DNA of 64,000 nt from a virus: the IMG/VR virus record IMGVR_UViG_3300042991_001118, positions 1 through 64,000 of that record; one strand, 5' to 3'. Shown here piece by piece: positions 43,720 to 63,658 of the stretch (within the stretch, counting starts at the first letter, position 1; the number at the start of each line of letters is the position of its first letter). The notes below the pieces were generated by a model. The model searched no databases. It saw nothing but the letters and a program-made list of their open reading frames with translations, and was not told where the DNA came from. The position numbers were made by a program, and so were the translations under genes.

Positions 43720-43818
43720 AAGCACGCAGCAAAGGAGAAAATGGACATTATTATTGAGAGAGTTATGTTGGGACATGAAGGTATTCGATTCATGTCAGGA
43801 GATGATTGCTGCGTGCTT
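43720..43818. repeat. 13-bp perfect inverted repeat around a small plus-strand frame
   Basis: AAGCACGCAGCAA (43720-43732) and TTGCTGCGTGCTT (43806-43818) are exact complements 73 nt apart. They could be the base of a long RNA stem or the ends of a tiny mobile cassette. Confidence 0.65.
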
Positions 43819-43836
43819 GTAATTTTAGTCTGCTAA
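43741..43836 (+). CDS. Possible 31-residue peptide inside the inverted repeat
   Basis: AAAGGAG lies 4 nt before the ATG; reads MDIIIERVMLGHEGIRFMSG... and ends TAA at the edge of the convergent gene. Its existence rests on the ribosome site alone. Confidence 0.35.
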   Translation: MDIIIERVMLGHEGIRFMSGDDCCVLVILVC

Positions 43837-44408
43837 TCCGAGTAGTCAACCTTATCGGAATCCATATAATCTTTGGCTTTAGCCCAGTATTCTATGTTAT
43901 ATTCCAAAACGTCTGGTTTTTTGAACCAGGCTTCTTTTATTTTAGATTCCGAATCCGCATCTAAAACGTTGTGATTTTTGTATAATGTCAGGATTTCATT
44001 TCCAGCCTTTTTGTATATCGCATCCAGCTTCGCTGCATATTTTTCATAGATGTCGTCTTCGTATTCCCCGAATATTTTCCGATATTTCCCGCCTTTTTGT
44101 GCCGAAGCAGCCTCTTTCTTAGCCTTCTCTTTAGCCGAACTAATTTCATCCTGTACCGAATTGATAATTTTCCACTTTTCCTCTTGGAATACTTCCTGAA
44201 TTTTTTCTATATCAGGACGTATCGCTTTCAGGATTTTTTCCTTTGAATTTGCTTCTTTTCTATCCTTTGCCGCAGCCTCTTTCTTTGCCTTCGCAGCCTG
44301 TTCTTTATCGTATGCGGCCTTGTACTTCTTGATGTCTTCTGGGCTATCTGCTTCATCCAGACGATGTGTTCCGAGAATCCTAGCGATTTCTTCATCTTTC
44401 CTCAGCAT
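43833..44408 (-). CDS. 191-residue coiled-coil protein with capsid-targeting-like leader (paralogue 1)
   Basis: The N terminus MLRKDEEIARILGTHRLDE-AD is nearly identical to that of the next gene and ends in an L-x-E motif at residue 19. T4 internal proteins carry similar short leaders that are cut after L-x-E during head maturation. The remainder is lysine/alanine/glutamate-rich coiled coil ending in a shared helical domain (YKKAGNEILTLYKNHN...). I infer a protein packaged in the virion head. The paralogue lies 9 nt upstream. Confidence 0.65.
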   Translation of the reverse strand: MLRKDEEIARILGTHRLDEADSPEDIKKYKAAYDKEQAAKAKKEAAAKDRKEANSKEKILKAIRPDIEKIQEVFQEEKWKIINSVQDEISSAKEKAKKEAASAQKGGKYRKIFGEYEDDIYEKYAAKLDAIYKKAGNEILTLYKNHNVLDADSESKIKEAWFKKPDVLEYNIEYWAKAKDYMDSDKVDYSD

Positions 44409-44417
44409 TTTCGTCTC

Positions 44418-44969
44418 CTATTGTCCTGTCATATTTTTCCTATTGATAGCTTCTGCCCAACGTTCTAATTTGGATTTTAGAATGTCTTCTGTTAGGAACC
44501 AGGTACTTTTTATCTTGTCTTCCATTTCTTTACTTAAGGCGTTATTTTTTTTATATAGTGAAAGCATCTCAGTCCCAGCTTGTCTATATGCGTCTTCTAA
44601 TTTGGGGAGGTATTCCTTGAAGAGAATCTCTATATATTCCATAAATATTTTTCGATATTTTTTTCCCCCTTGGGATACTTCGGCTTCTTTCTTGGCTTTT
44701 TCTTTTGCCAAGATTTTACGATTAGCAAATTCTTCAATTATGGAATACCTATTTTTTTTAAATTTATTTTCTATCTCTTTTTTTTCTATAGATTTATCAA
44801 CTTTACTTTTTGCTATTTGGTTTCTCAGTTGATGCGATCTTGATAGTATGCTTTTTGTTACAGAAGATTCAAAATCTTTGTCTTCTGTTTCGGCAGCTTC
44901 GTCCATATCGGATTCGTCCAGACGATGTGTTCCGAGAATCCTAGCGATTTCTTCATCTTGCCTCAGCAT
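44418..44969 (-). CDS. 183-residue coiled-coil protein with capsid-targeting-like leader (paralogue 2)
   Basis: Leader MLRQDEEIARILGTHRLDE-SD, followed by a diverged coiled coil. The C-terminal domain (YRQAGTEMLSLYKKNNALSKEMEDKIKSTWF) is homologous to that of paralogue 1. About 85 bp including the ribosome site (AGGAGACGAAAATG) are almost identical at DNA level between the two, while the bodies differ widely, pointing to recent exchange of the leader region. Confidence 0.65.
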   Translation of the reverse strand: MLRQDEEIARILGTHRLDESDMDEAAETEDKDFESSVTKSILSRSHQLRNQIAKSKVDKSIEKKEIENKFKKNRYSIIEEFANRKILAKEKAKKEAEVSQGGKKYRKIFMEYIEILFKEYLPKLEDAYRQAGTEMLSLYKKNNALSKEMEDKIKSTWFLTEDILKSKLERWAEAINRKNMTGQ

Positions 44970-45538
44970 TTTCGTCTCCTATTGTCCTTTAATATCTCCT
45001 GATATCTCTTGTAATATCCCTCTTTGCATTTATCGCACACATTGATGTAGTGGTCGCCCACTCTCTCAATTGTGCTCCCATCATTTGCGCTGTAATAGAC
45101 ATGTTTATCATTTCCACATGGGCAGGGGTTCATAGAGGAGAGCAAGTGGCATGTTGATACGGGGGCGATCCTCTCCCAGATTTGGAAGGGTCTATAATGA
45201 TCATAGAAGTCGAAATAGATTCCGGACAATATGCATTTTGTCCTGGTGGAATCAGCCGTTTTCAATGTGTCGAGCAGGACATGTTCATTTTTAAACACGG
45301 CATACAGATGTACCTCATCGAAAATGACGAGGTCATAATTTCCGATATCTACGGCTTCCTGTAGTCGTAGCACTCCGGGTAAGATATTTGAGATATCCCG
45401 TTTACTATTTCTTGTGTTTCCCGGATGATCGAATACCTCCACTTTCTTTTTCAAAGACACCGCGTTATCGAAGGCTATTTTTAGCCTTGTAGTCTTTCCA
45501 GACATCCAAGGACCAACGAGGCATTCACATTCAAGCAT
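44963..45538 (-). CDS. tdk: Thymidine kinase, TK1 type
   Basis: 191 residues. Walker A GPWMSGKTTRLK, the DEVHLY Walker-B-type motif (DEAQF in cellular enzymes), the G-x-Y-x-D-F lid (GIYFDFYDHYRPF) and the zinc site CPCG...CDKC at the C terminus give the full TK1 order. It phosphorylates thymidine and probably feeds the thymidylate kinase at 57229. The 5' end overlaps a repeat-containing leader frame. Confidence 0.85.
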   Translation of the reverse strand: MLECECLVGPWMSGKTTRLKIAFDNAVSLKKKVEVFDHPGNTRNSKRDISNILPGVLRLQEAVDIGNYDLVIFDEVHLYAVFKNEHVLLDTLKTADSTRTKCILSGIYFDFYDHYRPFQIWERIAPVSTCHLLSSMNPCPCGNDKHVYYSANDGSTIERVGDHYINVCDKCKEGYYKRYQEILKDNRRRKC

Positions 45539-45627
45539 AAAAATACTCCATAACTTGGGACATGGACTCCATACCTTTGGACATGGACTCCATACCTTTG
45601 GACATGGACTCCATACCTTTTGGACAT
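45481..45627 (-). CDS. Possible 48-residue heptapeptide-repeat leader peptide
   Basis: ATG follows the methyltransferase stop directly (TAAATG). Reads (RYGVHVQ) repeated, then runs into the thymidine kinase gene in another frame and stops. No ribosome site. It may be coincidental to the DNA repeat. Confidence 0.25.
   Translation of the reverse strand: MSKRYGVHVQRYGVHVQRYGVHVPSYGVFLCLNVNASLVLGCLERLQG
45557..45620 (-). repeat. Three 21-bp tandem repeats before the thymidine kinase gene
   Basis: Three copies of a 21-bp unit containing GACATGGACTCCATACC in the 90-bp gap between the methyltransferase stop and the kinase start. On the coding strand each holds AAGGTATGGAGTCCATG, and GGACATGGACTCCA-type half-palindromes. 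Confidence 0.75.
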
Positions 45628-48725: not shown

Positions 48726-48977
48726 TTAGCATTGATTAGTTCTGTATCCATGAAGTAGAACGGACTCCAGACTTTCACCTCCTAGAAATTCTCCCACGAA
48801 ACAAGTTGCAACATCATGTGAAATGTACAGCATATTTTCCTTTGCGAAATCGTGGAGGTATTTTGTTTCGGCGTAGTGATACATTTTTTCTCTTTTCACA
48901 ACGACGTGGTCTTCAAAAAAGATTATCTCGTTACGAAGTATCCACGTTGTTTTTATCACGTTGTAAACTTTCTTCAT
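48726..48977 (-). CDS. Unknown 83-residue protein
   Basis: Starts MKKVYNVIKTTWILRNEIIFFED; beta-rich start then helix. Starts at the 3' end of the 104-residue gene (ATGA-type overlap). Confidence 0.55.
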   Translation of the reverse strand: MKKVYNVIKTTWILRNEIIFFEDHVVVKREKMYHYAETKYLHDFAKENMLYISHDVATCFVGEFLGGESLESVLLHGYRTNQC

Positions 48978-49288
48978 ATTTTCCTTATCTCCTCTTCCAT
49001 TTCATGTATTGCTTGTCTCCAGCCTTCTCGGACATATTCAGGCAACCTAGTGTCCGTTGTTAGACGAAACAACGTTTCTTTAAGACCTGGTATCCGTTTC
49101 AACAAAGATAGAGACTTAGACATGTCTTGCGGGTCAAAGGGGGAATCCCGCCCTGGGAAGATTTTGTTGAATCCGCATAGCCAGAACAGTGTATTGCTTG
49201 ATGCCGAATGCCTTCCCTCAAATATATAGTCTATCGCATTGACTAGTTCTTCTCGTGTCAGATAAATCGAATCTGTTTTTTTACTCAT
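48974..49288 (-). CDS. Unknown 104-residue protein
   Basis: The ATG at 49288 overlaps the stop of the acidic-tail gene (ATGAGTAA). A longer frame upstream only reads the 24-bp DNA repeat (PMTMRRRV units) and is rejected. Helical, rich in leucine; no family. Confidence 0.55.
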   Translation of the reverse strand: MSKKTDSIYLTREELVNAIDYIFEGRHSASSNTLFWLCGFNKIFPGRDSPFDPQDMSKSLSLLKRIPGLKETLFRLTTDTRLPEYVREGWRQAIHEMEEEIRKI

Positions 49289-49613
49289 CGTCATCGGAAC
49301 ACGCCTCCTCATCGTCATCGGAACACGCCTCCTCATCGTCATCGGAACACGCCTCCTCATCGTCATCGGAACACGCCTCCTCATCGTCATCGGCATAAGT
49401 ATCTTTATTGTAATGATATAGAAGCATTTGGATTACGTCTCCATACTGCTCTATACTTCCATCTTTCCATGTTTTGCCCTGGTCCATGCTGATTTTTACG
49501 ATATACTTCGCATCTCGAAAGCATATCGCAACGTATTCATTATCGGGAGTTTTTAGTTCCGCAATACAAATTTCTCCATCTATTTTTACAAAATTATCGT
49601 GAATTTTTAACAT
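49281..49613 (-). CDS. 110-residue protein with acidic DDDEEACS tandem tail
   Basis: Residues 1-75 form a small beta-rich domain (EYVAICFRDAKYIVKISMDQGKTW). The C terminus is about five units of DDDEEACS encoded by exact 24-bp DNA repeats (49288-49390). Repeat number may vary between isolates. Acidic tails of this kind often mimic DNA or bind metal; not shown here. Confidence 0.65.
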   Translation of the reverse strand: MLKIHDNFVKIDGEICIAELKTPDNEYVAICFRDAKYIVKISMDQGKTWKDGSIEQYGDVIQMLLYHYNKDTYADDDEEACSDDDEEACSDDDEEACSDDDEEACSDDDE

Positions 49614-61110: not shown

Positions 61111-62163
61111 TCACTTTGTTTCGTCCTTAATTGGGGCAAAATTTAGGACGTTTTCCTTGGCCATTTGCATTAGAAGTTCCCATTCGGCCAAATTCATGTT
61201 AAATATTTTTTTTACCTTTCCCGTGTTCCCCCCACACAGGATTAAAAAATCAGAAAATGCCCTAGCTACAGACAACGCATCTTGCGCTATGATTTTCTTT
61301 TCTTCTCCAAGATTAAATTCTGGGAATGCGTCTATAATGTCCTGAAAAAATTCGACAGTATTTCCTGGTCTTCGTTCTCTATCATCTTGCCATGCTTTTG
61401 GCAAGGTCATTAGGAGTTCTACCGGGAGATTTTCTGGGGCAAATTCATCGTCATTCGCAACCATGAAATAACATATCTTTGCGAGTGCAAAGATATCTGC
61501 TCTTTCATCGACATTCCCAGCGTCCTCCATCTGTTCTGGTGCGGCATATCCAGGCGTGCCAAGAATTGCATTAGTCCTCGTCAGGACATTTTCTATTCCA
61601 GACATCGCTATACCGAAATCTATGAGCTTTGCCTGTCCAGATTCCGTTATGATGATATTGTCAGGTTTTAAGTCCCGATGCACGACGTTATATGAATGCA
61701 GTAGCCCGACTCCCTGCACTATTTGTTTAAATAACAACAACTTGTCTTTTAGAGACAAGGACGCACCCTGTGTTTGTATATATTTTCTTAGGTTGCTTCC
61801 TTTGCAATACTCGCATACAAAGTAGAATGGGGATTCTCTTAAGTCATATACCAGGGGGAATGGAGGAATTCTTCCAGACAAGATTTCACTATCTGATATC
61901 GTTGCCATTATTCTAGTGCTTCTGATAAACCTTTTTTCGTTCTCTTGACTGAGGTCAGGGAGTCTAATATTGAGAACTCTCTTTTGATTCAAAAGCATGT
62001 CTTTGTATAAAATGACTAGTTTTTCAGATCCCATTCCGAGGGTTTCTAAATACTCTCCCTGTGGTACGCAATCCCGTATCATGGAATTTGCATACATATC
62101 GACATTCCCAGCCATGAAGAGTTTTAATTTTTCGTAAAAATTTTTGTCTTTTCTCCCCAACAT
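61111..62163 (-). CDS. Ser/Thr protein kinase (Hanks type) with Lys-to-Arg change
   Basis: 350 residues. HRDLKPDNIII near 162, IDFGIAMSG near 181, GTPGYAAPEQ near 202 and DIFALAKI near 223 give a complete catalytic loop, DFG and activation segment. In the N-lobe the expected V-A-I-K lysine appears as VLNIRLP (Arg ~67), so ATP binding may be altered. No membrane helix. It lies next to the FHA-GAF protein, whose FHA domain would bind a phosphothreonine, so they likely form one signalling pair. Confidence 0.85.
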   Translation of the reverse strand: MLGRKDKNFYEKLKLFMAGNVDMYANSMIRDCVPQGEYLETLGMGSEKLVILYKDMLLNQKRVLNIRLPDLSQENEKRFIRSTRIMATISDSEILSGRIPPFPLVYDLRESPFYFVCEYCKGSNLRKYIQTQGASLSLKDKLLLFKQIVQGVGLLHSYNVVHRDLKPDNIIITESGQAKLIDFGIAMSGIENVLTRTNAILGTPGYAAPEQMEDAGNVDERADIFALAKICYFMVANDDEFAPENLPVELLMTLPKAWQDDRERRPGNTVEFFQDIIDAFPEFNLGEEKKIIAQDALSVARAFSDFLILCGGNTGKVKKIFNMNLAEWELLMQMAKENVLNFAPIKDETK

Positions 62164-62173
62164 AGTTCGCTCC

Positions 62174-63658
62174 TCATTTACTTGGTGTGGGGTTTTTCTT
62201 TTCTTCTATTGGTGTCCATTTACAGACAACTCCACCAGAATTTTTTAAAAGCAAATCTTTAAATTCGATTGGAGTTTTTTTCTTATCGAAATAATCTACC
62301 AAAGTTTGTGGATCCGTGGTGGACAGAACACATATCGTCTCTTCTGTTAATCCAGAAAATTGAGATTCTGCATTGACCTTGTCTTTTATCCCAGAACCCC
62401 ATTTTGCCCTAGACTCTGAATAGAACGCCGAGTTTTTATTTTTTGTTTTTAATACGATATTGCATTCTTCAAGTCCTATAAAATTGGCAGAATTTCCTAA
62501 AATAGAGACGATTCCGATAGAGCAAATAGCTTTTCCGCGAAGTTGGGGACACCAGTACGAGTCTAATTTATGCAAAAATAATGGGCCAGAACTATAAACA
62601 AATTCTGTAGTTTGTATCAGAGAGAATAGCCCAGCGAATAGCATAAGCTGTGTTGTAAAATCTCCTCCTGTTTGGTTCTGGAAGGAACAAAAAATTAAAT
62701 TATTGCTGTTGTCTACGCCTTTCTTCCCTATCGAAAAATTTTGCAATTGCTTATCAAATGCAGTACACGTGATATTGGTATCCACATCGAATCTTTGCAG
62801 CGATAAAATCATTGTTGCAGCTTGTTGTCTCACGGTTTCTTGATATAGCAAGACAGAGAAAACCCCTTCCATTCCGGGCATTAAGGCACTTAAAAGCAAT
62901 AAGTCTTCTTGTGTTAGGGCTTCTTTGTCCTCTAATGTGTCAATGTATAGAATTCCGATAAGTGTATCGCTATGGAACATAGGAAAGCATATGGAGCTAC
63001 AAACCTTATTTTCAACAATGCTCCTGGATAGGTCGTCAGGGTCTTCGACTTCTGTTGTCGAGAATCTTTTTGCTTCTTTCGTCTCCCAAACTTGATCTAA
63101 GATATACCGTGGCGGAACGAAGTTTTGTGGTGCTTTTGCTACGATAGGTATCCATTTTTTATTATCTACACGGTATACCACGCCACGATTGATATGGAAA
63201 TTTTGTTCTAGGAAGTCCAATAAAAATTTTGAAAATTGTGAAAGACTCCTGGGCATCCGGTTAAAAAAATCGCGTGACAATTTTTCTGCCACGTTCTTTT
63301 TATTGATTAGCTCCACGCCAATAGCCCGGACCTTACTTGTCTCCATTCTCCTGGTAGCCTGAGCTTCGTCTTTAAAAATTACAATGCACCCCTGTTTGGG
63401 ATGCCCCAAGACAATCACGTCGTTGTGATTTATCTTTATCGTGCTACTTGGTGCGATGGATACCCCATTGACCCAGGTGGATCCATCTAGAGTTTCCATT
63501 ATGACGCTTTCTGAATCGCGTCGTATTCTCGCATGTGCTGCCGATACGTTTTTACATTTTAATCCTAATGCTTGTAGCCATTCTAGGCTAAAAATGACAG
63601 GGTCATCACCTAGTATGATATTTTTCCCTGATTCTTGCAAGACGATATATGCGGGCAT
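62174..63658 (-). CDS. FHA-GAF domain signalling protein
   Basis: 494 residues. Residues ~15-95 form an FHA domain (SAAHARIRRDSE...DGSTWVNGVSI......DVIVLG). Residues ~145-275 form a GAF domain (GVVYRVDNKKWIPI...SICFPMFHSDTLIGILYIDTLED). The last ~200 residues are unrecognised. FHA binds phosphothreonine; GAF usually senses a small ligand. It is directly upstream of the kinase gene (10 nt). Confidence 0.8.
   Translation of the reverse strand: MPAYIVLQESGKNIILGDDPVIFSLEWLQALGLKCKNVSAAHARIRRDSESVIMETLDGSTWVNGVSIAPSSTIKINHNDVIVLGHPKQGCIVIFKDEAQATRRMETSKVRAIGVELINKKNVAEKLSRDFFNRMPRSLSQFSKFLLDFLEQNFHINRGVVYRVDNKKWIPIVAKAPQNFVPPRYILDQVWETKEAKRFSTTEVEDPDDLSRSIVENKVCSSICFPMFHSDTLIGILYIDTLEDKEALTQEDLLLLSALMPGMEGVFSVLLYQETVRQQAATMILSLQRFDVDTNITCTAFDKQLQNFSIGKKGVDNSNNLIFCSFQNQTGGDFTTQLMLFAGLFSLIQTTEFVYSSGPLFLHKLDSYWCPQLRGKAICSIGIVSILGNSANFIGLEECNIVLKTKNKNSAFYSESRAKWGSGIKDKVNAESQFSGLTEETICVLSTTDPQTLVDYFDKKKTPIEFKDLLLKNSGGVVCKWTPIEEKKNPTPSK

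Follow-up and report, generated by a model that had tools for sequence, protein, structure and literature searches.

A near-identical leader on two tandem phage genes as a probable capsid-targeting propeptide of a gp23/gp21-type head system

Two adjacent minus-strand genes, here named A and B, in the 64,000-nucleotide stretch of viral DNA analysed (the window; positions 1 to 64,000 of the 116,166-bp IMG/VR record IMGVR_UViG_3300042991_001118) share a nearly identical 19-residue N-terminal leader that ends in the motif L-D-E. Their products are probably internal head proteins, and the common leader a lineage-specific capsid-targeting propeptide, which is a known kind of element. The first-pass annotation had matched the leader to the capsid-targeting sequences (CTSs) of phage T4 internal proteins. 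This match is partly supported by the head machinery of the phage, the L-x-E boundary, the layout of the T4 ipII and ipIII genes, and a leader family in a sister phage, but it does not extend to the sequence, which is unlike that of the T4 CTS. By analogy, the leader would work like a T4 CTS, homology to which is not supported at the sequence level.

Gene A (43833..44408) codes for 191 amino acids, with the leader at residues 1-19 followed by a body predicted to form a long coiled coil or helical structure, and gene B (44418..44969) codes for 183 amino acids. The two genes are full-length tandem paralogs with homologous bodies, as judged from an overall identity of 42% and a match that still has an E-value of 2e-22 when the leader is left out. 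Three zones can be distinguished in the protein alignment: the leader (95% identity), a fast-changing middle (residues 20-80, ~20-25%), and the C-terminal half (~45%; ~75 residues at 46% identity). The earlier claim of strongly differing mature parts is thus only partly correct. Mature T4 internal proteins are basic; the computed isoelectric points of the mature parts of A and B are 6.9, which is not basic, and 9.2, respectively. Directly upstream of B, a thymidine-kinase-like (TK-like) gene (44963..45538, minus strand) ends with a stop codon that overlaps the start of B (ATGCTGA), and B therefore probably shares the message of this gene. The neighbours of A and B form an operon-like run of genes for DNA metabolism and modification.

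Several other features of the window were recorded. A perfect 13-nt inverted repeat (AAGCACGCAGCAA / TTGCTGCGTGCTT; arms separated by 73 nt) is located at 43720-43818 just downstream of A, and three direct repeats of 21 nt each (GGACATGGACTCCATACCTTT) lie at 45545-45620 between the TK-like gene and an N6/N4 DNA methylase gene. The ORF at 48974-49396 opens with four tandem copies of PMTMRRRV, which are either an N-terminal peptide repeat of the protein or a tract of repeats lying 5' of the true start. At 61111-63658, a Ser/Thr protein kinase-like gene (phrog_2361) adjoins a gene in which an FHA-like N-terminus and a GAF-like middle were recognised by reading the sequence; these two genes are a possible phage signalling pair.

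The leaders of A (44352..44408, minus strand; MLRKDEEIARILGTHRLDE) and B (44913..44969, minus strand; MLRQDEEIARILGTHRLDE) agree in 18 of 19 residues, the sole difference being K4 versus Q4. Both have LDE at residues 17-19 as a putative cleavage motif, followed by alanine in A and by serine in B. On the nucleotide level, a block of 72 bp that runs from 19 nt ahead of the ATG through codon 18 and contains an AGGAG ribosome site is 98.6% identical between A (44356..44427, minus strand) and B (44917..44988, minus strand); by a longer measure, the shared DNA comprises 90 nt at 93% identity. The first-pass description of two neighbouring genes with a near-identical leader ending in L-x-E, and of about 85 bp of nearly identical DNA including the ribosome site, is therefore confirmed. 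The 19 nt ahead of the ATG coincide with the 3' end of the TK-like gene in the case of B, and with the 3' end of B in the case of A. Among the positions that have the same residue in both proteins, the codon is unchanged at 17 of 18 in the leader and at 27 of 57 outside it (Fisher p = 2.8e-4).

Since ribosome site and leader DNA are conserved jointly, and both 90-nt stretches can fold into a similar hairpin, the conserved element might be an RNA, namely a translation-control structure over the ribosome site and first codons with the peptide as a by-product. This explanation is highly improbable, because the predicted folding is no better than that of shuffled sequences (z = -0.92 and -0.64; -0.55 and +0.54 with more flanking sequence), the only difference within the 72 bp is non-synonymous (K/Q), and in the sister phage described below the codons of the leader vary but its peptide is retained.

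In a two-rate scan of the aligned proteins, Met1 being left out, the best change point of conservation fell right after residue 19, immediately behind L-D-E. Identical columns account for 17 of 18 positions before this boundary and for 58 of 174 after it, and none of 3000 column shuffles gave a boundary as strong. The motif is weak evidence if taken alone, as 27 of 150 ORFs have an L/I-x-E at residues 10-25. L[DE]E[AGSE] sites are not enriched in the whole genome of the window phage (7 seen, 7.3 expected).

The main rival of the proposed reading is that a plain tandem duplication was followed by a recent conversion or short recombination event that copied one 5' end onto the other, so that the leader has no role of its own and both proteins are cytoplasmic and early. 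Some conservation of the leader is in any case expected by descent, because A and B are paralogs, and the homology of their bodies agrees with this scenario, as does their place among DNA-metabolism genes in an operon-like arrangement. A conversion tract would also leave the synonymous sites of the leader nearly unchanged, and the block takes in 19 nt upstream of the ATG, which is beyond the need of a ribosome site. However, conversion does not explain why the tract should stop within 1-2 bases of an L-x-E motif bordering on a predicted floppy linker, and the same DNA pattern is found in T4 ipII and ipIII, whose leaders are known targeting leaders. The sister phage, in which a leader occurs on unrelated proteins and its synonymous sites have diverged, further argues against duplication and conversion as the whole story. 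Taken as a complete explanation, this scenario is thus regarded as unlikely. Gene conversion of the leader, which had been suggested in the first-pass annotation, fits the near-identity of the synonymous sites and may have occurred. In the preferred reading, which gives the leader a targeting role, the gene pair arose by tandem duplication, after which the bodies diverged while selection for targeting and cleavage kept the leader constant; a recent gene conversion or recombination tract probably made the leader DNA uniform.

AlphaFold2 models, which were built with only the two sequences in the alignment, are alike for A and B and consist of a helix at residues 3-12/13, a stretch with pLDDT <50 at residues 13-20/22, and subsequent long confident helices. 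The low-confidence stretch holds the LDE site, and the leader is thus predicted to be a short detached helix on a floppy linker, so that the most conserved part of A and B lies outside the predicted folded body. N-termini of proteins are often floppy, and the detached leader is therefore supporting rather than decisive evidence. Comparison of the model with the PDB and with viral models gave nothing but generic helical bundles, and no fold relative reached E <= 0.001. At the level of these models, any docking peptide would look like this conserved short helix on its floppy linker, which, together with the neighbouring DNA-metabolism and modification genes, would also suit a peptide retained for docking to a target other than the scaffold, such as a host protein, the replication complex or a partner protein. 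No partner motif was found, and the position of L-D-E exactly at the conservation boundary, the S77 protease encoded by the phage, and the precedents in T4 and SPN3US favour the head as destination; docking elsewhere is accordingly considered improbable.

The head genes of the window phage are located at 102289-105576 of the 116-kb record, outside the window. They code for a gp23-type major capsid protein (MCP; PF07068, 3.5e-15, 56.7 bits at a cut-off of 24.4) and an S77 (gp21-type) prohead protease (PF03420, 6.3e-16, 58.9 bits at a cut-off of 27); the PHROG matches for protease and capsid are phrog_207 and phrog_138. The record also contains a gp20-type portal (phrog_213), a terminase-like ORF and a contractile tail sheath, and only one protease was found. 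By its gene content, the window phage is an uncultured contractile-tailed phage with the gp23/gp21-type head system in which T4 CTSs work. In T4, gp21 and gp22 are separate genes; in the window phage, a single 601-aa ORF (record positions 103771-105576) combines the S77 protease with a long C-terminal part that is scaffold-like, and the counterpart in the sister phage has the same layout with 682 aa. Within otherwise variable stretches near the N-terminus, IVE, LRE and LVE occur in the same columns of three MCPs of this lineage, and LQE and LRE at the same place of two of its proteases, which suggests that the lineage protease shares the L/I-x-E specificity of T4 gp21.

The sister phage (IMGVR_UViG_3300033153_016035, 119,917 bp) was identified among relatives of the MCP of the window phage; its own MCP is 64% identical to the latter, and the head and tail genes of both phages occur in collinear order. 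Compared with this genome, the 116,166-bp record is circularly permuted with both ends in the same neighbourhood, and it appears to be nearly complete. All-against-all comparison of N-termini revealed that three minus-strand genes of the sister phage (105411-106430, 113250-115925 and 116195-117337) have the leader M[DN]SYFLLRAGLHP in common, although the bodies of their products (317, 891 and 380 aa) lack similarity to each other. The leader alone gave blastp E-values of 1e-4 to 1e-8. Whole-gene duplication cannot explain its presence on unrelated bodies, and since these proteins agree in 11-12 of its 13 residues but in only 4-6 of 13 codons, selection acts on the peptide. An L/I-x-E motif occurs within a few residues of the leader in two of the three proteins (LLDE and INE); the third reads LRQE (PLRQE) and lacks the motif directly behind the common leader. 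This family thus resembles A and B in the related head genes and the short shared N-terminal leader that is in two of three cases followed by L/I-x-E, but it differs in the leader sequence and the mutually unrelated bodies, and no homologue of A or B was detectable in the sister phage. The likeness between the two leaders is not above background, as an equal or better score is reached by 11 of 151 N-termini; for the T4 CTS and the leader of A, this number is 127 of 150. A common origin of the A/B leader and either the sister-phage or the T4 leader is therefore not supported.

Additional features of the sister phage concern possible head cargo. A second, diverged S77-like ORF of 158 aa (107126-107602; phrog_207 at 4.7e-5, PF03420 below cut-off) lies among the leader-bearing genes, and an 850-aa ORF (110688-113240) contains four L[DE]E[AGSE] sites versus 0.34 expected, possibly being a head-cargo polyprotein cut by the prohead protease. 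At 86099-86647 and 86697-87929 on the minus strand, a gene for an Acb1-type anti-CBASS protein (PF23474 above cut-off) adjoins a C5 DNA methylase gene, and the first 10 residues of the two products are the same at nine of 10 positions (27 of 30 nt). As the N-terminus of the Acb1-type protein reads MDRQTGIYNIIHGRLDE followed by G, this enzyme may be head cargo as well. It is conceivable, if rather doubtful, that this lineage has its own modular address tags for head cargo, with a leader particular to each phage that is swapped onto unrelated proteins and selected as a peptide; the sister-phage leader, which lies near a second S77-like protease gene and near a polyprotein-like gene with many L-D/E-E sites, would fit this, with the Acb1-type enzyme possibly being injected cargo.

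The leader itself is without known homologue in the sequence collections searched. In the whole 116,166-bp record, read in all frames, neither the leader nor its DNA occurs a third time; the genome-wide search for the leader proposed in the first-pass annotation thus yielded only A and B. No homologues of A or B were found in IMG/VR with A, B or an A/B profile as query, nor in GTDB genomes, phages and plasmids; those collection searches that are seeded by exact peptides are insensitive to distant relatives. The bodies gave no match of note in Pfam, PHROG, NCBIfam or PDB, and searches for syntenic relatives via the upstream neighbour and a helicase yielded none that were useful. Three matches to the leader motif ILGTHRLDE across IMG/VR were dismissed as chance, since they read IFGTHRFDE in unrelated frames.

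If A and B are internal head proteins, the leader helix would dock on the assembling scaffold core and carry them into the prohead, where the S77 protease of the phage would cut after L-D-E19; the mature helical body would then be freed inside the head and ejected with the DNA. What it does after injection can only be guessed by analogy; a counter-defence function like that of T4 IPI and IPIII is one such guess. Injected T4 proteins act as first-response counter-defence, with IPI directed against GmrSD and IPIII needed on E. coli ECOR17 (PMC9391042). Should this reading be correct, leaders ending at the protease motif of the respective phage would provide a sequence-only listing of packaged and injected proteins in uncultured gp23/gp21-type phages, rapid turnover of capsid-targeting leaders among related phages would go along with an unchanged mechanism, and there would be new candidates for tags with which proteins can be loaded into phage heads.

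Among the closest known counterparts is T4, which has the same combination of gp23-type MCP and S77 gp21-type protease as the window phage. The T4 ip genes lie away from the head cluster, and the location of A and B among DNA-metabolism genes is therefore neutral. T4 gp21 cuts after L/I-x-E, and the T4 internal proteins have N-terminal propeptides of 10-19 residues, which are identical in IPII and IPIII (PMC9026906). The ipII and ipIII genes are same-strand neighbours that agree fully in their first 10 codons (30 of 30 nt) and in the ribosome-site stretch before the ATG, and no similarity of the bodies was found beyond the N-terminus. A and B share with this pair the adjacency, the conserved ribosome site and leader DNA, the short N-terminal leader and the diverged bodies, but they are paralogs of 42% identity whereas the T4 bodies are not detectably related. 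They differ from T4 internal proteins also in their unrelated leader sequence, in the predicted long coiled coil of the body, and in that their packaging is a proposal. Neither leader nor body places them in the sequence family of the T4 internal proteins or CTSs; what they have of T4-type CTS cargo is a short shared leader on differing (still homologous) remainders, L/I-x-E at the leader end, and the S77 protease together with a gp23-type capsid protein. The paralogs gp53 and gp54 of the giant Salmonella phage SPN3US (phiKZ gp93 family) are similar to A and B in that identical 15-residue N-termini with protease motifs, taken as CTS-like by the authors, are combined with diverged bodies (34% overall identity; PMC5694885), but the protease specificity is of the phiKZ type and the propeptides comprise ~125 residues in all. 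P1 DarA/Hdf and other ejected antirestriction proteins, which are head-associated, may, by analogy only, be functional analogues of A and B.
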